Source of the DNA: Nitrosospira multiformis
Lineage (GTDB): Bacteria > Pseudomonadota > Gammaproteobacteria > Burkholderiales > Nitrosomonadaceae
Length of the DNA stretch: 64,000 nucleotides
NCBI GenBank assembly: GCA_017306155.1
Contig: JAFKJB010000010.1
Coordinates: 93,023 to 157,022 of the forward strand
Reading direction: 5' to 3'
The translations under genes were made by a program, and so were the position numbers. Position 1 is the first letter of the stretch; the number at the start of each line of letters is the position of its first letter. The notes below the pieces were generated by a model that saw nothing but the letters and a program-made list of their open reading frames with translations, did not search any database and was not told the DNA's origin. This document shows positions 2,006-22,632 of the stretch, in pieces.

Positions 2006-3067
2006 CTAGTTTAGTGTCGAAAGATAGGAGGCCAGGGCTGAGGCTTCACTGTCCGATAATGCGATGCTTGGCATGCGCGCTCCCGGCTTGTAGTGTTGTG
2101 CGCGGGTAATCCACTCCATCAGGTGATGGGGTGTATTGGTCAACAGTCCGGCAGCGATGCGACCGCGCGAGTTCAGATGCGTGAGATCAGGACCGTGCAG
2201 GCCTTCCGCTTCTGTTCCACGCACCGCGTGGCATCCCCCGCAGCGATCCATGAACAGCTTGTACCCATGCTCATCGTGTCCTGACACCGGGAGAGCAGTG
2301 CGGCGTTGCGCCTCTTGCCATTTCTCGAAATCCAGATCGCTTTCCGCAACCACTTCCAGATTCATATGAGCATGCGCCGCTCCACAGAATTGCGCGCATT
2401 GACCGACATACATGCCCGGAACGTCTGCCTGAATCCATTTCTGGTTGACCAGGCCCGGAATCATTTGAGTTTTTCCGGCGAGTACCGGTACCCAGAATGC
2501 GTGAATGACGTCTGCGCTTTTCAACTTGAGCAGTACCGGCCTGCCTACAGGGATGTGGATTTCATTGGCGGTAAAAAAACGTTTCGCCGGATCGGCATGC
2601 TCGTATTCAATGCTCCACCACCAGTCGTAACCGGTTACAGTCAGGGTGAGAGCTGGAGTTTCGGCGGGCCTGGCAACCGCATTGAGCACGGTCAGAAAAT
2701 ATACGGTGAGCCCGGCCAATATGAAGGTAGAAATCCCTGTACCGATATAAACCCATCTGACTCCCCCGCGCTCGGCGCCAATCATGTCGGGATCGGCAGC
2801 ATCGCGCTTGCGAACCAGGGCGATTACCAGCAGCAGTATGACGATGAGGGTAATGGCCGAGAGCAAAGCCGTCATCAGCCACCCCAGATGCATTACAGGT
2901 GTGGCGGCAGGGCCGTAGCTGTACAGGAAATAGTTTAAAGGGGTGTCCAGCGTATCTGCTGCTTCCGATGGTCTTGCGGCGATCATGAATAGCGCCGGAA
3001 ACGTTATCCTGAAATGCAGGTTTTCTATTGCCGACTTCGAATCGAAACCTGACTTGGAAGCTTTCAT
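2006..3067 (-). CDS. coxB: cytochrome c oxidase subunit II with fused cytochrome c domain (caa3 type)
   Basis: Receives electrons from a donor and passes them to subunit I through the CuA centre on the periplasmic face. The protein has a signal-like N-terminus and two membrane helices (about residues 57-84 and 105-127). The CuA loop GQCAQFCGAAHAHM lies near residues 222-235. A C-terminal haem c motif CGGCH near 276-280 makes this a caa3-type subunit with its own cytochrome c. The ATG at 3067 is chosen because a GGAG lies 12 bp upstream; a TTG at 3079 would sit directly on that site. It is first in the operon with coxA. Confidence 0.93.
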   Translation of the reverse strand: MKASKSGFDSKSAIENLHFRITFPALFMIAARPSEAADTLDTPLNYFLYSYGPAATPVMHLGWLMTALLSAITLIVILLLVIALVRKRDAADPDMIGAERGGVRWVYIGTGISTFILAGLTVYFLTVLNAVARPAETPALTLTVTGYDWWWSIEYEHADPAKRFFTANEIHIPVGRPVLLKLKSADVIHAFWVPVLAGKTQMIPGLVNQKWIQADVPGMYVGQCAQFCGAAHAHMNLEVVAESDLDFEKWQEAQRRTALPVSGHDEHGYKLFMDRCGGCHAVRGTEAEGLHGPDLTHLNSRGRIAAGLLTNTPHHLMEWITRAQHYKPGARMPSIALSDSEASALASYLSTLN

Positions 3068-3434
3068 GGGCTTGACCAACTCCAGTGTACGCGGAGATGC
3101 AGCGATAAGCGCGATCCGACTGCGACGGAGTGACCACAGGCGGAGGGAACTGCAAGGGAAATATCGGTGTTCCCGCCAACCGGCCTATGCTGGCGTGCGA
3201 TAAGGACGCACTTTCCAGAATGCAGAGAGCCGACGATGTCGCAGTGTTTTCAAAAATTCTACGCTGCTCATTTCGTGTTTCTGTGCGCTAGCGTACGCAG
3301 GAATTTCGAAAAAACCCCTGAACAGGTCAGCACTCCTGTTCAGGGATTGTTCTCAGCGGCTCTTTCAGCCTGCAGGCAGAGAAACAGACGCTACATTGCT
3401 GGAACCGATCGGAGACACGAACCTGAAATGCGAT
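3068..3434. other. intergenic region upstream of coxBA
   Basis: No convincing gene. It must carry the coxBA promoter, though I cannot point to a clear one, and the terminator of the carbonic anhydrase gene at its right side. Short frames here have no recognisable product. Confidence 0.6.
3309..3345 (-). terminator. rho-independent terminator of the first carbonic anhydrase gene
   Basis: Perfect 11-bp stem CCCTGAACAGG/CCTGTTCAGGG (3316-3326 and 3335-3345) with an 8-nt loop. On the minus strand it is followed by G and six T. It lies about 90 bp beyond the stop of the carbonic anhydrase gene. Confidence 0.85.
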
Positions 3435-4376
3435 TCAGGCTGCTCCAGTTGCGCTTGGCCGACGCCTGATAGCAATAAAACCGATTGCCGCGAGGCCGGC
3501 CAGGAGCATGCCATGGGTTGACGGTTCGGGAACGCTCGTCGCAAGTTTGGACATGTCGGCTGTGACAGAAACGTCTGCTTCCAGGCCAGGGAGCAGCGTG
3601 CCCAGGAGATTTGGGTCGGAGTCGCCATTGAGGCTGACGAAGCCAGGCACGTCGGTAAGCACGATCCGACCGTTCAGATCCTGAACCTCGCGCGAATTGC
3701 CTTCGGGGAACAGTGACTTGAAGGCATCGATCTGACTCCCGGATAGATATAGCGGAGAAGCCAGGTCAACCCAGCTTACTCCTTCTGTAAAAGGCGGTGT
3801 CGTCAATGAGCCGGAGTAGCGGAAAGAACCGAGATAATCCGGTATCAGGCTGTTCAGGTTGAAGTGCTCGATATGGAGTGTTTCCTCGGGGGTTTGAGGC
3901 AAATCGGAGAAAATGGGAGCGAGTGCCCGATTCCTGAAGAGGCCCTGCTCGATATCCCGGCCGACCACGAGAAGATTATCCGCAGCATCGCTGAAGACGA
4001 GGTGCATCTCCATGGGGCTGGCTCGACCATTTATCAAATGCTCGGAGGGGGTGTGGAAGTGGAATTGAGCCAGATTCCATTGGTGTCCTGAAAGCATCAG
4101 CGTTCCTTCGCCAGAATTGACATTGGCCCTGATAGTACTTTCGTGATCGGGAGAGCCATTATTGATTACGGTAAGCGCGGTATTCGAACTGAGGTTGAAG
4201 TTCAGCTTAGGCAGGTTTCCGTAATAGGTGCTGTCCGAACGTATATCAATCGGACTTTGTGCTTCCATCAGCTCCAGCTTGCTCGCCAGCGTGTCCGCGT
4301 ATGCAGCACTGAAGCCTGGCAGGAAAAGGACCGCGGCAAGCGCAGCCATTCTCAGGGATCGAGATGTTTCATTCAT
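3435..4376 (-). CDS. exported alpha-carbonic anhydrase with PEP-CTERM anchor (copy 1)
   Basis: Alpha-class carbonic anhydrase, interconverting CO2 and bicarbonate outside the cytoplasm. It has a signal peptide ending near residue 27 (AAYA-D). QSPIDI lies at 40-45, the zinc ligands at His106 and His108 in QFHFHTPSEH and His125 in MEMHLVF, and the substrate loop SLTTPPFTEGVSW near 190-202. The C-terminus carries VPEPS (282-286), a hydrophobic helix and an arginine cluster, the PEP-CTERM signal recognised by exosortase. About 30 extra residues lie between the enzyme domain and the anchor, absent from copy 2 at 8007-8873. In an autotroph it may supply bicarbonate or buffer pH at the cell surface; that role is inferred. 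Confidence 0.93.
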   Translation of the reverse strand: MNETSRSLRMAALAAVLFLPGFSAAYADTLASKLELMEAQSPIDIRSDSTYYGNLPKLNFNLSSNTALTVINNGSPDHESTIRANVNSGEGTLMLSGHQWNLAQFHFHTPSEHLINGRASPMEMHLVFSDAADNLLVVGRDIEQGLFRNRALAPIFSDLPQTPEETLHIEHFNLNSLIPDYLGSFRYSGSLTTPPFTEGVSWVDLASPLYLSGSQIDAFKSLFPEGNSREVQDLNGRIVLTDVPGFVSLNGDSDPNLLGTLLPGLEADVSVTADMSKLATSVPEPSTHGMLLAGLAAIGFIAIRRRPSATGAA

Positions 4377-4805
4377 AAGACGGCCTCACGAAAAATAAAT
4401 GTTCATAGGGTTTATAGGAGGAAAGTTCTAAAAGCTTGAAAAATCCCGAATGATCGGTTCCAACGCTTCTCTGATCGGAGAGCGCCGGTTGGAATAGACG
4501 GGGAAGTGAGCTGGTGCTTGGCCAGTCGCTGTTGTTATGAGTCCATCACCGAAGTCCGGGGGGCGCTCCACGCATGAAACCCGCAGGCTTGAAACCTTGC
4601 GAAGAGCGGTACCGGGCGGTGACGGATAGCCCTTTTTATGCAGTCGTGATATTAAGGACTGTACTGGGCGGATGGCCTGCTTTATCGGGCTTCGTCAGCT
4701 CTCTATTGCAGGCTCTTGTTGAAATGGGGGTTGATTCAATTCCTGACGCTGGACTCGTCCGGATCCCCTCAACGCCAGTGAAGGGGATCCGGGGGGGTGA
4801 AACTG
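4377..4805. other. intergenic region between porin and carbonic anhydrase copy 1
   Basis: No supported gene; a 91-codon plus-strand frame at 4574-4849 runs into the porin antisense and resembles nothing known. The only clear structure is the stem-loop at 4759-4792. The 11-bp-spaced TGTCA repeats seen upstream of the porin and of copy 2 are not present upstream of copy 1. Confidence 0.55.
4759..4792 (-). terminator. stem-loop downstream of the porin gene
   Basis: Perfect 11-bp stem CCGGATCCCCT/AGGGGATCCGG with a 12-nt loop, 14 bp past the porin stop. There is no T-run on the minus strand, so it may be an mRNA 3'-end stabiliser or weak terminator rather than a classical intrinsic terminator. 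Confidence 0.5.
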
Positions 4806-6398
4806 TCAGAAGGCAATCTGATATTGCAGGACGAATTGATTCCTGTTAGAAATCTTGTAGCCAGCTGAGTTGAATATGGGCCGGTTCTGGATGTCGAAAG
4901 TCAGTTTGCTGTTATGTCCCTTGATCAGCCAGTTTACCCCTCCACTGAATACATTCATCTGATTATGCAAACGGTCAAAGTCTGCGCTGATGAAAGAGAA
5001 GTAGGGCATCAACTGGCCATTGTTTCCGCCGAGAAGATCCTTGGGCAGCAGATATCCGATCTGTCCGTACCATTGATTGCCCGTGCCAAACATGGGGAAG
5101 GCATTGCCGCCAGTACTGGCCGGGTTTACCCCGTTGCCGTTCATGCGCAGATAGTTGGGGCCATAATCGGTATTGAAGTAGCCGATATAAGCGGATATCG
5201 CAGTTTCCTTCACCTTGTCTACCGGGGCATCCAGATAGGCTGCAACCGACCATAAATTCAAATCGTGGAACTCGGCTGTGGCTTCCGTAAGGCCGGTCCA
5301 GGTCGCATTTTTCTGCGTAATATAACCTCCTTCCAGGTTCAGGACGCTTTTCTTGCCCAGATAGGTGCCCTGCATATACGGATTGGTCATCGGCTCCTTA
5401 TCCCAGAAATTCCACATGAAGAACCCCTGGTATTGTTTCTTGTGGCCCACTCGCGCGAATTGGGCGTTTACCGGGGAAATGATTTCAGCAGGAAGTCCGG
5501 CAGTATTGATGGGGAAGGGATCACTTGCCGTGAAGCGATAGTTGAGGGGTCCGATCTGGCCTCTCAGGTAGACGCTCAGCCTGCGGTTGAACTGGTCGGT
5601 ACGATCAGCAGTCGCCTGAGCCAGCAATGGCACATCCATGGTCATGATCGTGCTCACGCTGGGGCTGCTGAAGCGGGAGAGACCATTGGCCATGACAAGA
5701 CCGCCCCCTACGATCATCTGGTGTCCCTGTGTCAGCCGCAATTCACCGAAAGCATCATGGAAGAAGGATTGAAGCTTTCTGTTATCGCCGTTCTGGCTCA
5801 GGAAATTAAAATTGTTCATCCCGTACTGGGTATAAAAATACACCCGATCGGTCAATTGCCCCTGTAATACAAAACGCGTGCGGCGCAGGCTGATGTCAGT
5901 GACGTCGTCCACCGACTCACCCAGCACCGTGGAGCCGGGATTGGTTTGTTCATATCGCGCCCATACCTGATTCAGGAAGCCGAATTTGATGTATTGGCTT
6001 CCATCCGGATTCAGGTTGAACTTGAATGGATCCTTTTCTTTCCAGTTTGCGTATCCAAATCCTCCCTGGGGTTTTTCCTGGGATTTTTCCACGGATTTCG
6101 GAACGTCACGCACAAGCACGCCTCCCTCGTCCTTTGCCTTGCTGTCAGCAACGGCCCCATCCGGGCTCGAGGTGGCAACAGGTTTTGCCGGTTTCTCCGG
6201 GACTTTTTCAAAGGAACCCATGCGGACACGCCCTTCTCCAGGCTCGGCATAGATCTGTTTTGTTTTGGTATCGACATAAAGGTCGATGACATAAGACGCT
6301 GCGGTATCGGAGTCTGAAGACGCTGGCTTTTCTTCGGCATACAGCGGAGCTGCAAGCAGGCAACCCGATAACAACACAAGCGAAGGTTTATATTTCAT
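4806..6398 (-). CDS. outer-membrane porin (OprO/OprP-like)
   Basis: Beta-barrel channel of the outer membrane. Signal peptide ends near residue 21 (PLYA-E). A charged, Lys/Pro-rich region of about 100 residues follows, then a barrel with alternating strands. The stretch beginning DISLRRTRFVLQGQL near residue 165 resembles phosphate-selective porins, and the last residue is Phe, as in most outer-membrane barrels. At 530 residues it is longer than general porins because of the N-terminal region. It starts at an ATG behind AAAGGGAG. A Pho-box-like repeat lies about 100 bp upstream. Substrate is not known; position between two carbonic anhydrases suggests anion (bicarbonate or phosphate) passage, which is inference. 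Confidence 0.8.
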   Translation of the reverse strand: MKYKPSLVLLSGCLLAAPLYAEEKPASSDSDTAASYVIDLYVDTKTKQIYAEPGEGRVRMGSFEKVPEKPAKPVATSSPDGAVADSKAKDEGGVLVRDVPKSVEKSQEKPQGGFGYANWKEKDPFKFNLNPDGSQYIKFGFLNQVWARYEQTNPGSTVLGESVDDVTDISLRRTRFVLQGQLTDRVYFYTQYGMNNFNFLSQNGDNRKLQSFFHDAFGELRLTQGHQMIVGGGLVMANGLSRFSSPSVSTIMTMDVPLLAQATADRTDQFNRRLSVYLRGQIGPLNYRFTASDPFPINTAGLPAEIISPVNAQFARVGHKKQYQGFFMWNFWDKEPMTNPYMQGTYLGKKSVLNLEGGYITQKNATWTGLTEATAEFHDLNLWSVAAYLDAPVDKVKETAISAYIGYFNTDYGPNYLRMNGNGVNPASTGGNAFPMFGTGNQWYGQIGYLLPKDLLGGNNGQLMPYFSFISADFDRLHNQMNVFSGGVNWLIKGHNSKLTFDIQNRPIFNSAGYKISNRNQFVLQYQIAF

Positions 6399-6844
6399 TT
6401 GGCGCTCCCTTTCTAATTATGCCACATGCTTACTTACCCACATTCCAAAAGTGGGAAACGCTGAGGTTGTAGAAGGAAAATAACATGGCATATGTCAGGA
6501 AAATGTCATGTAAAAGTGAAGAAATAGTGAATTTCCTACGAAAAAGCAGGAGGAAAGACAAAAATGAAATACAGTATATACACGAGGGAATCCGTATGCA
6601 AAATGCCTATGATTATGTGTTCCTGAAAGAAACTGATCCGTTTCGTTGGAAATGGAACAGCTGAAGGCTCCGGCAGGGAAGTAGAAGAGCGATCTGCCAG
6701 ATTCCGTGGAGCAGTATGGGATGCGACGAGACAAAAAACCAGACGCAGGAGAACGAGGTGTGGAACGTCTCGAAAGCGAGAAAAGGGCGCTCGACGGCAC
6801 CATGATAATAGCAGAAAGCAGGTTTTCGAGTCCGATTCCGGCTC
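6399..6844. other. promoter region of the porin gene
   Basis: No supported gene in 446 bp. It contains a short stem-loop CCCAC/GTGGG (about 6438-6456) and the TGTCA direct repeats at 6492-6509. Its upstream edge is the stop of the small exported protein gene. Confidence 0.55.
6492..6509 (+). promoter_or_regulatory. Pho-box-like direct repeat upstream of the porin
   Basis: ATGTCAG GAAA ATGTCAT, two heptamers with an 11-bp period. The known Pho box is a pair of CTGTCAT heptamers separated by four A/T-rich bases, and here both TGTCA cores are exact. It lies 94-111 bp upstream of the porin ATG. The same arrangement, in the same orientation relative to its gene, occurs upstream of carbonic anhydrase copy 2. 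Binding of PhoB or another OmpR-family regulator is inferred. Confidence 0.4.
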
Positions 6845-7249
6845 TCAGCCGCCGCCCGCACCCCCTGCTGAAATGTTGGTGTCGACGTCCGGGTTCGGGC
6901 GACTGGGGGAAGGCGCCAGGAAGAAGCAGAGAATTCTGTGCAGGAGGCCTTCCCGGCGTTCCGCATCCTCCCGGCAGAGGCCGGTACTTTTTTCTCCGGT
7001 CCGTTCTTTCCGCGATGTATTCTCTTGTGTGGGCGCTGCTTCTTCGCGCAGAGAGAAATTATTTCCGGATATTGCCTCCTGGCAGTCCCCCTCCCCATCG
7101 TTTTGATGGAATGCAATCAGTGTTCGTGAATCCACCTGCCGATATGTCGACTCATTCTCCGGCGCGCCGGCAATAGCAGGAAGGGATATGACGGCTGACG
7201 AGAAAAACAGCAAACAACCTAACATGAAGGAACGGGAGGTGTTTTTCAA
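6845..7249 (-). CDS. small exported protein with NISAGGAGGG C-terminal tail
   Basis: Family not recognised. 134 residues: a signal peptide to about residue 28 (AIAG), a charged low-complexity middle with three Cys, and a tail ending DVDTNISAGGAGGG. The neighbouring upstream gene ends DMDENISAGGAGG, and the two also share a hydrophobic/aromatic segment and a Pro-rich spacer before the tail. The TTG at 7249 is taken as start because it gives a complete positively charged n-region and has a CAGGG upstream; the ATG at 7225 has no ribosome site. Probably the second gene of an operon (54-bp gap). The role of the tail is unknown; a processing, crosslinking or export signal are possibilities. Confidence 0.72.
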   Translation of the reverse strand: MKNTSRSFMLGCLLFFSSAVISLPAIAGAPENESTYRQVDSRTLIAFHQNDGEGDCQEAISGNNFSLREEAAPTQENTSRKERTGEKSTGLCREDAERREGLLHRILCFFLAPSPSRPNPDVDTNISAGGAGGG

Positions 7250-7303
7250 GATTATCTACCCTGGGTTGGCGGAGCAGGGGCTGATCTGCTGCTTAAAGCG
7301 GAA

Positions 7304-7780
7304 TCAACCTCCTGCGCCGCCCGCGGAAATATTCTCGTCCATGTCGCGATTGGGTCCGCGGGGCGTATCAGGCCCATACAGGATGCGCACCATTTTGCAG
7401 AGAAAATCCTCCTGCTCGGGCGATGCATATTTGCACGAACCCGATCCGGACTCGGAGCCCTGCGCAGGCGCCTCCCATCCCTCGGCGGCATTCGCCTGAT
7501 CTGCTTGCTGGGGCTCAACAGAAGCCTTGTCGCTTTCTCCCTTTTCAGTCCGGTTTCCCTTTTCTTTCTTGGTTCCCGGGGGAAGTTCCCAGCCCAGTCC
7601 ATCCTTTTCCAGGGATTGATTCCGCTGGTCTGTATTAGCAAATATATCCTGTACCCAGCTGTTTGCGCGGTCTGACAGACCCGATTGCGCGTGCGACATT
7701 CCTGCGGCGCCGGACATGACGACGCCGGCAAATAATGCAGCTTGCATTGCCCGTATTTTCAGTATCCGTGGATGTTTCAT
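7304..7780 (-). CDS. small exported protein with NISAGGAGG C-terminal tail
   Basis: Family not recognised. 158 residues with a clear signal peptide (cleavage near AHAQS, residue 32). The middle is rich in Glu, Lys, Gln and Ser, a Cys pair follows (CKYASPEQEDFLC), and the protein ends RDMDENISAGGAGG. ATG at 7780 follows AAGGTGG, a good ribosome site. It is paralogous, at least at the C-terminus, to the next gene downstream. The tail codons differ synonymously between the two copies at eight of nine positions, which shows the peptide itself is selected. Context is the PEP-CTERM carbonic anhydrase/porin locus, so an envelope function is likely but unproven. Confidence 0.78.
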   Translation of the reverse strand: MKHPRILKIRAMQAALFAGVVMSGAAGMSHAQSGLSDRANSWVQDIFANTDQRNQSLEKDGLGWELPPGTKKEKGNRTEKGESDKASVEPQQADQANAAEGWEAPAQGSESGSGSCKYASPEQEDFLCKMVRILYGPDTPRGPNRDMDENISAGGAGG

Positions 7781-7911
7781 GGTCCACCTTCGTTCAAATG
7801 AGGGATAGAGCGAATGGTGCGCGCTTGAAGGTGCGCGGTCAAGACAGATTTTGCAGACTTGTCGAAATCCTCAAAACTCTGCGGAGAATGATGCAAGCAA
7901 GATTGTCTGAG

Positions 7912-7947
7912 GTGGACGAGTACGGATGTACTTAAGTACTCATCCAC
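7912..7947 (-). terminator. stem-loop downstream of carbonic anhydrase copy 2
   Basis: 12-bp arms GTGGACGAGTAC/GTACTCATCCAC with one mismatch and a 12-nt loop that itself contains part of the palindrome GTACTTAAGTAC. It sits 59 bp beyond the carbonic anhydrase stop and lacks a T-run. It may separate that transcript from the small-protein operon. Confidence 0.45.
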
Positions 7948-8006
7948 ATTGCTTCACGATTTTCAAAGATGAAGGTTAACCGGATCCAAACACGATACAG
8001 CCTGAC

Positions 8007-8873
8007 TCATGCAACGGAACCGGCTGGTACATCACTGGTCAATGGCTTGTTTTTACGCCCGGCAACAAACGCCATGAGGCATAACCCTGCCAGCATCATC
8101 GCGTAGGTTTCAGGTTCGGGAACGGCAGCGACGAATCCAGGCACATCCGTCAGGACGATGCGTCCGTTAAGATCCTGGATTCCGCGTGCATCCCCTTCGG
8201 GAAACAGCGAACTGAACGCGTTGATTTGCTCTGAGGACATGAATAGCGGTTGCGATAGCATCACCCAGCTGACGCCTTCAGAAAACGGCGGTGTGGTGAG
8301 CGAACCAGAATAGCGGAAGGATTCCAGGCTGGCGGGAATGAGCGTATTGAGGTTGAAGTGGTCGATATGGAGTGTCTCGGAAGTGTTTTGCGGGATATGG
8401 GAGAAAATCGGATCGAGATCGTTGTTGAATGCGCCCGCCTGAACCCACCGACCGACCACGAGGAGGTCGTTATTGCTATCGCTGAAGACGAGATGCATCT
8501 CCATAGGATTCGCCTGGCCATCCCGTAAGTGCTCGGAAGGGGTATGAAAGTGAAACTGAGCAAGCTCCCAGTCATGACCGGAAAGCGTGAGGGAACCGGC
8601 ACCTGGATTGACATTGGCCCTGGCGGCGGTGCTGAACTCCGTGGAACCATTGTTGATGACATCGAGCGGCGTGTCGGAACTCAGGCTGAAGTTGAGGACA
8701 GGGAGACGACCGAAATAGGTGCTATCCGGGCGAAAATCAATTGGGCTTTGCGACTCCATCACCGCCAGAGCCGATGGAGTGACTTCCGCGTGCGACGTTG
8801 ACATTCCAAACACCAAAAAGGCTGAAAAGAGCGTGGCTTGCTGCGATAAGCGTAACAATGACATATTCATCAA
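8007..8873 (-). CDS. exported alpha-carbonic anhydrase with PEP-CTERM anchor (copy 2)
   Basis: Paralogue of the enzyme at 3435-4376, hydrating CO2 outside the cytoplasm. Signal peptide ends near residue 29 (SHAE). QSPIDF at 42-47, zinc ligands His108 and His110 in QFHFHTPSEH and His127 in MEMHLVF, and SLTTPPFSEGVSW near 190-203. VPEPE (251-255), a hydrophobic helix and basic residues form the PEP-CTERM signal. The block DLNGRIVLTDVPGFV is identical in both copies. The linker before the anchor is almost absent here, unlike copy 1. Upstream TGTCA repeats suggest regulation shared with the porin. Confidence 0.93.
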   Translation of the reverse strand: MMNMSLLRLSQQATLFSAFLVFGMSTSHAEVTPSALAVMESQSPIDFRPDSTYFGRLPVLNFSLSSDTPLDVINNGSTEFSTAARANVNPGAGSLTLSGHDWELAQFHFHTPSEHLRDGQANPMEMHLVFSDSNNDLLVVGRWVQAGAFNNDLDPIFSHIPQNTSETLHIDHFNLNTLIPASLESFRYSGSLTTPPFSEGVSWVMLSQPLFMSSEQINAFSSLFPEGDARGIQDLNGRIVLTDVPGFVAAVPEPETYAMMLAGLCLMAFVAGRKNKPLTSDVPAGSVA

Positions 8874-8980
8874 GTCTCCAGAATTATGGTGCGCGCCGGG
8901 CGTGCCGGGTTATGAAAAATGGATAAAATGTTGTTGCCACTTCAAATTAGCACAGCAGTTGTGAATTTAATGTCCATGAA

Positions 8981-8998
8981 TTGTCAAAATTTTGTCAT
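8981..8998 (+). promoter_or_regulatory. Pho-box-like direct repeat upstream of carbonic anhydrase copy 2
   Basis: TTGTCAA AATT TTGTCAT: two TGTCA cores with an 11-bp period, 108-125 bp upstream of the carbonic anhydrase ATG. Spacing, distance and orientation match the porin site at 6492-6509. Confidence 0.42.
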
Positions 8999-9204
8999 GA
9001 GATCTTCGCATCAGAAGGCAGGAGGCCGTCCTGAAAATGCCGTATATACATGCTGTATTCCCATGAGGATGGGTGACAGGAAAACATCACGGGCTCCTTA
9101 CTGCCCTTCGGCAGGCGCAGGGCGAACCGAAACCAGGGGCTCGGGTGAATGGGGGGAGAGGAGAGGTCTCCAGCCGAACTATTGATCCGGCGGGCAGGCA
9201 GCAC

Positions 9205-9238
9205 AAACGTCATACCTGCGGCAACCGGTATGACGTTT
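9205..9238 (-). terminator. stem-loop downstream of zwf
   Basis: Perfect 12-bp stem AAACGTCATACC/GGTATGACGTTT with a 10-nt loop, 100 bp past the zwf stop. No T-run follows on the minus strand, so intrinsic termination is uncertain. Confidence 0.45.
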
Positions 9239-9337
9239 AAAGCACACCATCGCTGGTTCGGGCTGGATTCCGGTTTGACTGGACTCCGGGACAGGCCCGG
9301 AATGATGGATTCATAGTACTTCTGGCCCTGGAGGAGC

Positions 9338-10732
9338 CTATTCCGGATTGTGCCAGCAGCCGTCCGGCTCAATCAGGGCATCGGCTGCGGGGGGACCCCA
9401 ACTGCCGCGCTCGTAGGGCAGGACGGGAGGATATGTCTTGAGTACAGGATCGAGCGCCGTCCAGGATGCCTCCACCGCCTCTCTCTTGGTAAACAGTGTG
9501 TCGTCGCCAATCATTGCATCATGCAGGAGGCGTTCATAAGGTGATTCACGCCCGAAGTGCTCCTCGACCAGGCACAACTCCTCCTGATCGCCTTTGAACT
9601 CTTTTCCGGGATGCTTGACTCTCGCCGCAATTGCAACCGCTGAGACCGGAGAAAGGCGGAACCTGAGATAATTGCCGTCACACGCGGCGCTTGCCGAATC
9701 AGCAAAAAGTTTTTGTGGCGGCGGCTTCAACTGGACAAGGACCTCCGCAGCGGTCTTGGCCAGGTATTTGCCGGAACGCAGGTACCAGGGGACGCCTTCC
9801 CAGCGCCAGGAGTCGATGAAAAGCCGCAAGGCGCAGAATGTCTCGACATCGGAGTTCTCCGCCACGCCCGCTTCCTGGCGGTAACCCGCATACTGTCCAC
9901 GCACCAGGTCCTCGGGTACAAGTGGACGCATGGCATGGAATATGTTGATTTTTTCGCTTTGAACCGTTCCGAGACCCTGATAGGCGGGAGGTTCCATGGC
10001 CAGCAGCGCAACGATCTGGAAAAGATGATTCTGGATCACGTCGCGCAGGCAGCCGGCCGATTCGTAAAATGCGCCCCGTTCTTCAACGCCGAACTCCTCG
10101 GCCAATGTAATCTGCACGCTGGCTACATAATTACGATTCCATATCGGCTCCAGAAATGAATTGGCGAATCTGAAATAAAGGATATTCATGATCGCCTCTT
10201 TCCCGAGAAAATGGTCGATGCGAAATATCGCTTCCTCGGGGAACACGGAGCGTGCAATACGATTCAGCTCACGCGCTGACTCAAGATCCCGTCCAAAAGG
10301 TTTTTCCACGATGACGCGCGCCCCCGTGGCCAGATCGAGCGCACCAAGACCTCTTATGACATTTTCGAAGAGAAGAGGAGGGATGGCGAGATAGTGCACG
10401 GGATGACGTGCGTCTCCCAGAGCCTTTTTGAGTATCTTGAACGTATCGAGATTGTTGTAGTCCCCGTGCACGTATCGCAGCAGGGAAAGGAGGCGATCCA
10501 GCGCCTGTTTGTCATCGATCTCCCCGGAGTCGCTGATGGACTGGGTAGCCCGTTCCTTGATTTGATCGAGGCTCAAGGGTGTCGAGGCGACGCCGACCAG
10601 CGGCACATTGAGCATGCTCTTTTTGATCATCGCATATAGCGCCGGGAAGATCTTTTTATAAGCGAGATCACCCGTTATCCCAAACAGCACCAGTGCATCG
10701 GATGGCTCGGTGTAGCCATTGGTTTCTCTCAT
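9338..10732 (-). CDS. zwf: glucose-6-phosphate 1-dehydrogenase
   Basis: Oxidises glucose 6-phosphate to 6-phosphogluconolactone, making NADPH at the entry of the oxidative pentose phosphate pathway. The N-terminal Rossmann motif GITGDLA is at 18-24, EKPFG at 143-147, and the active-site block RIDHFLGKE at 171-179. At 464 residues it is slightly shorter than the 490 typical of E. coli. It is the last gene of a minus-strand series pssA, pgi, tkt, pgm, zwf, which gathers hexose phosphate and pentose phosphate enzymes. In an autotroph these would handle stored glycogen or sucrose and regenerate sugar phosphates. Confidence 0.95.
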
Positions 10733-19808: not shown

Positions 19809-20696
19809 ATGATAATAGGAGGTTCTAATCAAATTCACCTTGACCTCGACGGAGAGCTCACTGCCACCGTTTCCATGCTGCAGATTCCTTCCGTAAATTT
19901 GAGAAATTGGGGACCAAAGCTGCGTTTTTCCGCGCTTAATCATGAAGTTGAGCGCTTCCAGTCAGAGGTTGCACGCCATCTGCGCCCATTTATTCTCTTC
20001 GGTTCCGGAGATTTTCACCATCTAAGCGCTATCTGGCTGCAATGGATTCAGAAGCCTATCAGCTTGCTCTCTTTCGACAATCATCCTGATTGGGACGTGC
20101 GCCCTCCCCGTTGGGGTTGCGGCGGATGGATCAATCGCGCGCTTGAGTCCCGCTGGCTGGAATCAGTTCAGGTGTGGGGCTGCGGAAATTTCGAGCTCAA
20201 TTGGCCTCATAATCTCTTTGCCCCAAAGAAGGCACTCCAGTCCGGGCGACTCCAGGTTTTTCCCTGGCGCGAGCGTTATCCGAAACTGTCAATCTGCCGG
20301 GAAGGGGCGATTTCCCGCGATACATGGCGTGACACATTCCTGCAACAACTTTCCCTGCGACGGGGGCACGCCCTGTATGTCACCATTGATCTCGATTGCC
20401 TCAATGCCGGGGAATTCCACAGCAACTGGGAGCATGGCCTCTTCACTGTGGATGATCTGGCCTGGGCGATTAGGCAAGTCCGCGAGAACACGACGCTAAT
20501 CGGTGGAGATATGTGCGGCGCTTATTCCGCACCTGTATACGCTCGCCTCACCCAACGGGTCGCCTCCACGTTTGACCATCCCCAGCAGTCTCCCGGCTTT
20601 GTTTCCGAAGCTATGCAAAATAACCATAGCGCGATCCTGAAGCTATGGCCGCTACTGGCTGGCGCCGACAATCAGAAGGCCGCCAACAATCAGTAA
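19809..20696 (+). CDS. arginase/agmatinase-fold (ureohydrolase superfamily) protein
   Basis: Divergent member of the Mn-dependent ureohydrolase fold. GDFHH at 67-71 stands for the usual GGDHS, DNHPDWD at 90-96 for DAHxD, and VTIDLDCLNA near 191-200 for SxDxDxxDP, with Asn replacing the last Asp. Most Mn ligands therefore appear kept, but the substrate cannot be named. An AGGAGG lies inside the first codons, so the true start may be further in, for example 19875. Its 3' end overlaps the convergent SMR gene by 45 bp. The partners (acyltransferase, paired small transporter) suggest a lipid or polyamine modification rather than arginine catabolism. Confidence 0.7.
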   Translation: MIIGGSNQIHLDLDGELTATVSMLQIPSVNLRNWGPKLRFSALNHEVERFQSEVARHLRPFILFGSGDFHHLSAIWLQWIQKPISLLSFDNHPDWDVRPPRWGCGGWINRALESRWLESVQVWGCGNFELNWPHNLFAPKKALQSGRLQVFPWRERYPKLSICREGAISRDTWRDTFLQQLSLRRGHALYVTIDLDCLNAGEFHSNWEHGLFTVDDLAWAIRQVRENTTLIGGDMCGAYSAPVYARLTQRVASTFDHPQQSPGFVSEAMQNNHSAILKLWPLLAGADNQKAANNQ

Positions 20697-21020: not shown

Positions 21021-21412
21021 TAAGGCTCGGCGATTACCAGGACTCCCAAAAGGACAATGCCAATTCCGGCAGCACGTATCGGACTGATCATTTCTCCAAG
21101 GAAAAAATAGCTGGCAAGAGGAACGAAGATATGCTCGATATTGACCAGATTAAATGCGATGTTGAGAGGAAGAACCTGGAGCACCCTTAACCAGAAGACA
21201 AAACTCAGGATATAACAAAGAATACCTGCTAAAACCCACCCGGAACCAAGGGTCTGAATTTCAAGCCAGCTTGACGCGCTCATCAGATTCGGCATGCCGT
21301 CAGCCGCTTTCTTCAGGCAAACTTCCGATGCAGTAACTGACAGGGCGCAGCAGAGGACTCGTAAAATGGGCAGGCCGCCAGACGCACCTGCAGGGGATGA
21401 ATCCGCATTCAT
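20996..21412 (-). CDS. SMR/EamA-type small membrane transporter subunit (first of pair)
   Basis: 138 residues with four predicted helices. LRVLCCALSVTASEVCLKKAADGM in the first helix has the Glu typical of the SMR family. The last two helices begin IAFNLVNIEHIFVPLASYFFLGE and AAGIGIVLLGVLVIAEP. Start overlaps the GNAT gene stop by 4 bp and its end overlaps the next SMR gene by 25 bp, so all three are one operon. Confidence 0.75.
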   Translation of the reverse strand: MNADSSPAGASGGLPILRVLCCALSVTASEVCLKKAADGMPNLMSASSWLEIQTLGSGWVLAGILCYILSFVFWLRVLQVLPLNIAFNLVNIEHIFVPLASYFFLGEMISPIRAAGIGIVLLGVLVIAEPYCRLEERA

Positions 21413-22632
21413 CGCAAATCCTGAAAATTGCGAAACTTTGGCAAGACGGGGTCGTATCGCGTCGGCTCCAGGAGAGGAATCAGGCGCCGAAAGAAGAAAT
21501 TGATCATGGGGGAGACGTGCCGCACATAAAGATCAAGGGGAGAAAGTTCAAGTTTTAAGTGCAACTTTGGGGAGTAGTTTAGGGCACTGGTGTGATATTG
21601 CTCAACCTGATTTTCTATTGCCCAGGAAATAATATCCCGGAACGAAACAAAATAAAGGTGCGCGCTCAAGGCTATTTTATAGTCCAGGCCTATGTAGCAA
21701 TCGCGGAGGATTTTTCCATACAGCACGCAAATATTAAACGCAACGATTTTTCCAAAGGAATCCCGCCAGACAAAGAATCGACCGCTCCCATTCAGCCCGG
21801 TTGCAAGTCCAGCAAAATACTCCTTTGTCAGAACCTCGAATTGAAACTTTGTACGGGCTATTACTTGATTATACAGCGGGTAAATTTCATCCAGAACAGA
21901 TGTAAGGTCAGACAGGACCTCCATCGAATAGTTATCCAAACGATCGGCGTCACGGAACTTCCGGCGAAGATTCTTGCGGGTCTTATAGCTCAAGGCCCGC
22001 TCCATGTAATCGTCAAAATCGCGATAAGTCAGATTGATCTGGCAAGCAGGAAAGCTGGGAATGCGCACATAATCGCCCGAAGAAAAACAGTTTAATGCCG
22101 GGCGATAACTCGACGGAAAATCCTTGAGCACGATCAAGGATGCCTTCAATTGTCGTGCTGCCTCGGGAAGGATATCGCACAAAACCCTCGAAACCTCGTT
22201 GTGGTCACATTCTCTTCCGGCAAGCGTTCCTTCTCCTGCCGAACATCCCACCATTAGTGTACGGAATTCACATAGGGACGAAAGCCAGCGAGGTATCCAG
22301 GCTCCCAATCCCTTTACCGAAACCGGTAGTCCTTCCAAAATGTTCTGTCTCACCAGAAAAACGGGCTGCACATACGCTTTTCCGTCATTTTTTTCCAGAA
22401 TAAGGAAATAGTGATCAAATTGCTCCCCAAGCGTGTCCTGGAGCAACAGATAATAGGAATGTTTCAGATATTTATCTTCGTAGCTCTCCTGCCAGGAGGG
22501 GTCGAGTGAATCTGGAATGCATTGGACCATCCGCACCCTTCCCCTGGTGATCTTAATATCGTCTTCCGATAAGATATAATCCCTGCTGTAAGCCGCTGCC
22601 ATTCTTTCACTGAAACCATCATACCCGCCCAT
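21409..22632 (-). CDS. GNAT/FemAB-like acyltransferase family protein
   Basis: 407 residues, soluble. The C-terminal half has features of the double-GNAT (BioF2/FemAB-like) fold: YKTRKNLRRKFRDADR near 217-232, YPLYNQVIARTKFQFEVLTKEYF near 251-273, and GKIVAFNICVLYGKILRDCYIGLD. Such proteins transfer acyl or aminoacyl groups to lipids, sugars or peptidoglycan precursors. The exact reaction cannot be read from sequence. First gene of the operon with the two SMR subunits; codon use is AT-richer than the metabolic genes around. Confidence 0.72.
   Translation of the reverse strand: MGGYDGFSERMAAAYSRDYILSEDDIKITRGRVRMVQCIPDSLDPSWQESYEDKYLKHSYYLLLQDTLGEQFDHYFLILEKNDGKAYVQPVFLVRQNILEGLPVSVKGLGAWIPRWLSSLCEFRTLMVGCSAGEGTLAGRECDHNEVSRVLCDILPEAARQLKASLIVLKDFPSSYRPALNCFSSGDYVRIPSFPACQINLTYRDFDDYMERALSYKTRKNLRRKFRDADRLDNYSMEVLSDLTSVLDEIYPLYNQVIARTKFQFEVLTKEYFAGLATGLNGSGRFFVWRDSFGKIVAFNICVLYGKILRDCYIGLDYKIALSAHLYFVSFRDIISWAIENQVEQYHTSALNYSPKLHLKLELSPLDLYVRHVSPMINFFFRRLIPLLEPTRYDPVLPKFRNFQDLR

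Follow-up and report, generated by a model that had tools for sequence, protein, structure and literature searches.

Two small genes that lie side by side in the window (the whole 64,000-nucleotide stretch of Nitrosospira multiformis DNA analysed here) encode two proteins, A and B, that close with an almost identical 13-letter tail of the motif D-x-D-x-N-I-S-A-G-G-A-G-G (Table 1). What keeps such a tail in place, and what might it act on? The initial annotation had placed both genes and their tails correctly and had given both proteins signal peptides, and by reading, the N-termini indeed resemble signal peptides. Its statement on the codons from Asn to the last common Gly is exact: for the nine codons of NISAGGAGG, A and B of the window have one in common and eight that differ synonymously, with no non-synonymous difference. 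The middles had also been described as diverged, and they do diverge fast. In the alignment the likeness extends beyond the tail to approximately 45 residues, comprising a helix-like stretch (e.g., E-S-F-L-x-K-I-I-R-I-F), a GPDxPxGPN turn, and then the tail.

Table 1. Features of the A/B locus and its surroundings, with positions counted from the first letter of the window.
Feature	Positions	Strand	Remarks
zwf	9338-10732	minus	
CA1, alpha-carbonic anhydrase with PEP-CTERM	8007-8873	minus	distribution does not track the A/B pair
Protein A gene	7304-7780	minus	158 aa; signal-peptide-like start, low-complexity middle, C-x11-C, short helix, tail
A-specific cysteine pair C-x11-C (residues 116 and 128)	7397-7435	minus	
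Predicted helix of A (residues 126-135)	7376-7405	minus	from a poor model
Tail of A, DMDENISAGGAGG	7307-7345	minus	
Protein B gene	6845-7249	minus	134 aa, TTG start; signal-peptide-like start, fast-diverging middle, tail
Tail of B, DVDTNISAGGAGGG	6848-6889	minus	
Outer-membrane porin gene	4806-6398	minus	530 aa; presence/absence matches the tail family in 61 genomes
Conserved N-terminal porin element IDLYVDTKTKQIYAEPGEGRVRMGSF, then variable linker	6210-6287	minus	shared with further porins of the bacterial family
CA2, second alpha-carbonic anhydrase with PEP-CTERM	3435-4376	minus	
Cytochrome oxidase subunit II gene	2006-3079	minus	

The invariant residues in 37 distinct aligned rows comprise P in the GPN turn together with N and GGA in the tail. 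To see how strongly these ends are constrained, we compared substitution rates along the genes. For B (20 genes, genus-wide), pN/pS is 0.79 in the N-terminal part, 0.51 in the 28 residues before the tail and 0.036 in the tail; for A (18 genes, the broken copy of genome G001 being excluded), the corresponding values are 0.67, 0.28 and 0.139. The tail itself has a pS of approximately 0.7, with a pN of 0.026 in B and 0.095 in A. Among the five closest, N. multiformis-like genomes, the B tail has a pN of 0, while the A tail (pN/pS 0.30) is no tighter than the N-terminal part of A (0.32), with a pN of 0 in the 28 residues before the tail; the variation of the A tail in these genomes consists of D, E or N as first residue and an A-to-V change in two of them. 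The claim of constraint is therefore strongest for B. Overall, purifying selection clearly acts on this short exported C-terminal motif, as had been proposed from the two window copies.

A and B are distinct kinds of protein, since a C-x11-C pair, placed before and in the helix, occurs in 19/19 A and 0/20 B proteins. The structure model of A is poor (mean pLDDT 51) and contains helix only in the signal peptide region and at residues 126-135, besides a three-residue turn; the latter helix sits in the best-scored blocks of this poor model (block means 72 and 69). Such sparse helix together with low pLDDT fits a disordered protein, and we predict that A is mostly disordered. An amphipathic helix is only suggestive: the moment exceeds that of 95% of shuffles in 14/20 B and 6/19 A proteins. 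Neither window protein has a Pfam or NCBIfam match up to an E value of 1, and the 27 members of the A/B alignment have no NCBIfam or PHROGs match and a single Pfam match (Trypan_PARP, E 0.0059), to a family that is by description one of low complexity. Searched against PDB chains, in a set that starts at 20 residues, a profile of the A/B C-terminus gave best E values of 0.78 and 6.1, which is chance level. No description of the A/B pair or of the neighbouring porin was found in the open-licence literature, and a proteomics study of N. multiformis (PMC5960693) reports abundant uncharacterised proteins, none of which was mapped to A or B. A and B form a new family, restricted to the genus within the genomes searched.

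Protein A as query matches 21 of 61 genomes. All 21 belong to the GTDB genus (Nitrosospira/Nitrosovibrio), which has 23 genomes in this set; the 38 remaining genomes have no match. There are 39 matches, two per genome in 18 genomes and one in three, including G017, where a single tail gene was found. Extraction of these 39 proteins demanded the tail, and the protein A search without that demand gave an equal number. In every match the alignment runs to residue 157 or 158 of protein A (158 residues), so that the likeness of the tails is beyond chance. Because the middle diverges so fast, a homologue that had lost its C-terminus entirely would easily escape such a search. A profile of the last 55 residues, built from the 37 distinct rows of the 39 proteins, finds the same 21/23 genomes within the genus, and 24 of 125 genomes in the bacterial family, three of them through spurious frames; in an order-wide sample, where at most 16 candidates per genome were scored, it finds 1 of 399 genomes, the source genome itself. 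Across 84,980 species genomes, 94 stretches fit the tail pattern, and all 14 loci listed carry the title Nitrosospira or Nitrosovibrio; the 80 other stretches may include unrelated proteins of distant bacteria that bear the bare nine-residue motif. At the DNA level, the tail pattern occurs in 2 of 398 genomes of the phylum, twice in the source genome and once at a stray site in G727 that lies inside none of the eight listed surrounding open reading frames of at least 40 residues.

No more than two carriers per genome were confirmed over the 23 genus genomes, and none outside the genus among the genomes searched. Candidate third carriers in G015 and G022 (E 0.013 and 0.033) are chance matches that overlap rpsP/rimM-like frames (named by reading). 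Of eight further weak profile matches (E 0.0185 to 0.54), seven do not cover the tail portion of the profile and one (G014, profile positions 19-54) has an internal stop. In G002, a match (E 5.4e-4) comes from a tail located where a contig ends. Three matches in another genus, probably Nitrosomonas (E 7e-4 to 1.7e-3), were rejected, as they are one common frame without the tail. This conserved spurious frame of 78 residues (L116, L117 and L118) lies between ispE-like and prs-like genes, mimics the tail profile and is probably a tRNA gene read as protein.

The initial annotation had asked for a co-occurring gene family, and one was found in the outer-membrane porin encoded next to the pair. Close porin orthologues (E at most 1e-20) and the tail family occur in an identical set of 21 of the 61 genomes, one of which (G001) holds only remnants of both, and no close orthologue was found in the 397 other genomes of the phylum sample. 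Among the 20 genomes whose porin is intact, the distance between pair and porin is 0.36 to 1.24 kb in 19; in the remaining one (G014) it amounts to 9.8 kb, on the same contig. The two genus genomes without the pair, G016 and G018, are also without a close porin, and their contigs continue from zwf into other genes. In G001, a deletion fuses B at codon ~53 to the porin at codon ~438 (L060, 5400-6560), leaving the last fifth of the porin, and the A gene has an in-frame TGA and ends in GGAGD; this is a decaying copy of the whole A/B/porin system.

We used the pgm gene, found in 23/23 genus genomes, to place these three genomes (the match in G017, L105, carries one TAA stop). G018 groups with G002 (support 63 by DNA and 97 by protein), and G016 falls outside the group of G015, G022 and G001 (support 97 and 94, with 100 and 100 at the inner node). 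If the locus is ancestral, the states of G001, G016 and G018 arose separately. However, neighbouring genes can vanish in one deletion, and the missing block may have been deleted in one step each in G016 and G018, so that only the stop codon in A of G001 is independent of block loss.

The porin itself has no Pfam match, no PDB sequence match and a score below cut-off against the NCBIfam model ExtI (62.8 of 150 bits). Its structure model is poor (mean pLDDT 47) and gives weak fold matches to DcaP (6eus), PorB, OprO and OprP among other barrels. The protein is built from a signal peptide, the near-invariant element IDLYVDTKTKQIYAEPGEGRVRMGSF, a variable linker and the barrel. We considered this element as a specific docking site for the tails and rejected it, as it is also found on porins of tail-less genomes: it occurs in 39 of 61 genomes at E values up to 0.1 (three of them weakly, at 0.001 or worse). 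These comprise all 23 genus genomes (G016 and G018 included) as well as genomes from further genera of the family. Two element-bearing porins outside the genus adjoin PstS-like genes by reading, and a third, in G060 (L109), stands beside beta-carbonic-anhydrase-like and SulP-like genes, again by reading. Such neighbours hint that element-bearing porins serve anion transport and that the G060 porin is involved in bicarbonate traffic.

What might the tails do? For two exported, probably disordered proteins that carry one motif, a common binding site is the most economical reading, and we put the porin first as partner because its gene follows the fate of the A and B genes. We therefore tentatively favour, at somewhat less than even confidence, the view that A and B, as disordered proteins of the periplasm, associate with the neighbouring porin and dock on it by their tails. 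Both would be exported by Sec and, mostly disordered, would reside in the periplasm, with the variable middle serving as a spacer. A short linear motif, formed by the C-terminal helix and chiefly by the D-x-D-x-N-I-S-A-G-G-A-G-G end, would bind one site, most likely in the lumen or at the periplasmic mouth of a probably trimeric porin. With two diverged carriers of one tail, the channel could be tuned, tethered or occupied in a mixed manner. If this is true, a dedicated genus-wide protein pair would act on an outer-membrane pore through a common short motif, and the pore would be a lineage-defining part of the exchange of ions or substrates between Nitrosospira and its surroundings. Even without the porin link, the exported motif under selection belongs to no known family.

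Several observations count against docking on the porin. Second related porins without tail genes beside them exist in five genomes, and genomes that lack the tails still have porins with the N-terminal element. Like the pair and the porin, the cytochrome oxidase subunit II gene is absent in G001 and G018, and G016 has only a distant copy of it. In addition, the models of the porin and of A are poor, and G017 has one tail gene.

Known systems provide partial precedents. Omp32 of Comamonas acidovorans, an anion-selective porin, was reportedly crystallised with a periplasmic peptide (Zeth et al. 2000). Omp32-type entries are among the fold matches of the window porin (2fgq and 1e54, at ranks 13 and 25), a generic beta-barrel likeness; what differs is that the A/B C-terminal profile finds no PDB chain better than the chance-level match given above. 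Disordered colicin segments are reported to thread or bind OmpF (PMC8561637 and PMC7335789). Colicins are imported toxins, whereas the cell itself makes and exports A and B, which have no known family match. The colicin segments that thread OmpF are glycine-rich. It is physically possible for a disordered polypeptide to dock in a porin lumen, and docking of the tails on the porin is thus physically plausible. A bolder version of porin docking, which we regard as improbable, has the tails as plug or gating peptides of an outer-membrane anion channel: with their acidic and then glycine-rich ends inserted from the periplasm, they would regulate or charge-select the passage of anions such as bicarbonate, phosphate or nitrite in an organism that lives autotrophically by oxidising ammonia.

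We rank docking on the porin above three other functional explanations. In the first, A and B have a different target, for example a carbonic anhydrase, lipopolysaccharide, a metal or the other member of the pair, and the porin link reflects neighbourhood only. We consider this unlikely, though it has points in its favour: a carbonic anhydrase gene lies within approximately 2 kb of the pair in 16/21 genomes, and D-x-D-x-N could in principle bind a cation. However, carbonic anhydrase is found in 22/23 genus genomes, among them the three without a working A/B/porin system (G001, G016 and G018), and the linkage of pair and porin holds where the carbonic anhydrase lies elsewhere (G013, G015, G017 and G022). 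The subunit II gene, found in 16/23 genus genomes, was not found in the pair-bearing G012, G015, G017, G021 and G022. Both carbonic anhydrase and cytochrome oxidase were therefore rejected as partners, as their presence profiles differ from that of the pair.

Of similarly low probability is the explanation that A and B are precursors, from which a protease would free a C-terminal peptide (approximately DVDTNISAGGAGG) acting as a signal or other extracellular peptide, with the fast-diverging part as a pro-region and the porin as exit. The architecture of signal peptide, variable region and invariant C-terminus would suit this, two genes would yield nearly one peptide, and the porin linkage would agree with the exit route. 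On the other hand, by reading, the alignment has no conserved processing site ahead of the tail, conservation in A spans approximately 45 residues including the cysteine pair, and the scanned neighbours include no recognisable receptor or protease gene. None of 13 neighbouring genes (the porin, the two carbonic anhydrases and ten more) matches a RiPP enzyme family, and no modifying enzyme is obvious beside the pair in the window; the neighbour at 19809-20696 has no family, and that at 21409-22632, approximately 14 kb away, is FemAB/GNAT-like.

Less likely again is that a dedicated enzyme or transporter encoded elsewhere in the genome reads the tail as a signal for anchoring, secretion or crosslinking. 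Its position at the extreme C-terminus and its near-identity in two diverged proteins would be expected of such a signal, and like PEP-CTERM and GlyGly-CTERM it is a short conserved C-terminal signature on exported proteins. Unlike those, the A/B tails have no hydrophobic helix or basic end behind them, and no sorting family matches. PEP-CTERM models (PF07589/TIGR02595) find neither the window proteins up to an E value of 1 nor the 27 members up to 0.01, and find both window carbonic anhydrases, which served as positive control; the tail is thus unlike PEP-CTERM, as the initial annotation had it. The GlyGly-CTERM (rhombosortase) signal is a Gly-rich motif followed by a transmembrane segment. 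The A/B tail is the protein end, and the 27 members have no NCBIfam match. A tag on many unrelated proteins is not supported, with at most two confirmed carriers per genome and none confirmed outside the genus, though the bare nine-residue matches in distant bacteria may include some, and the absence of a confirmed third carrier in any genome makes a general sorting tag unlikely.

Finally, A and B are adjacent and similar over the C-terminal 45 residues, but that their tails are alike merely through recent duplication or gene conversion is very improbable, since the tail codon differences are mostly synonymous and A and B of one genome have no more codons in common (mean 2.67 of 9, 18 pairs) than A and B across genomes (mean 2.83 of 9, 362 pairs), which agrees with the initial view that recent copying is not the cause.

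Some features of the surroundings deserve mention. A scan of positions 4300-9400 gave no RNA element at Rfam gathering scores, and promoter and terminator scans were at about the shuffled level (4 vs 3.4 and 6 vs 5.2, respectively). The A/B pair and the porin are flanked by CA1 and CA2, both with PEP-CTERM ends above the TIGR02595 cut-off. The second related porins (L110, L111, L112, L113 and L114) have no tail-like neighbours by reading, and at least four of the five lie near ABC-transporter-like and repeat-protein-like genes. The zwf gene of the window has 93.5 to 96.1% identity to Nitrosospira multiformis strains.
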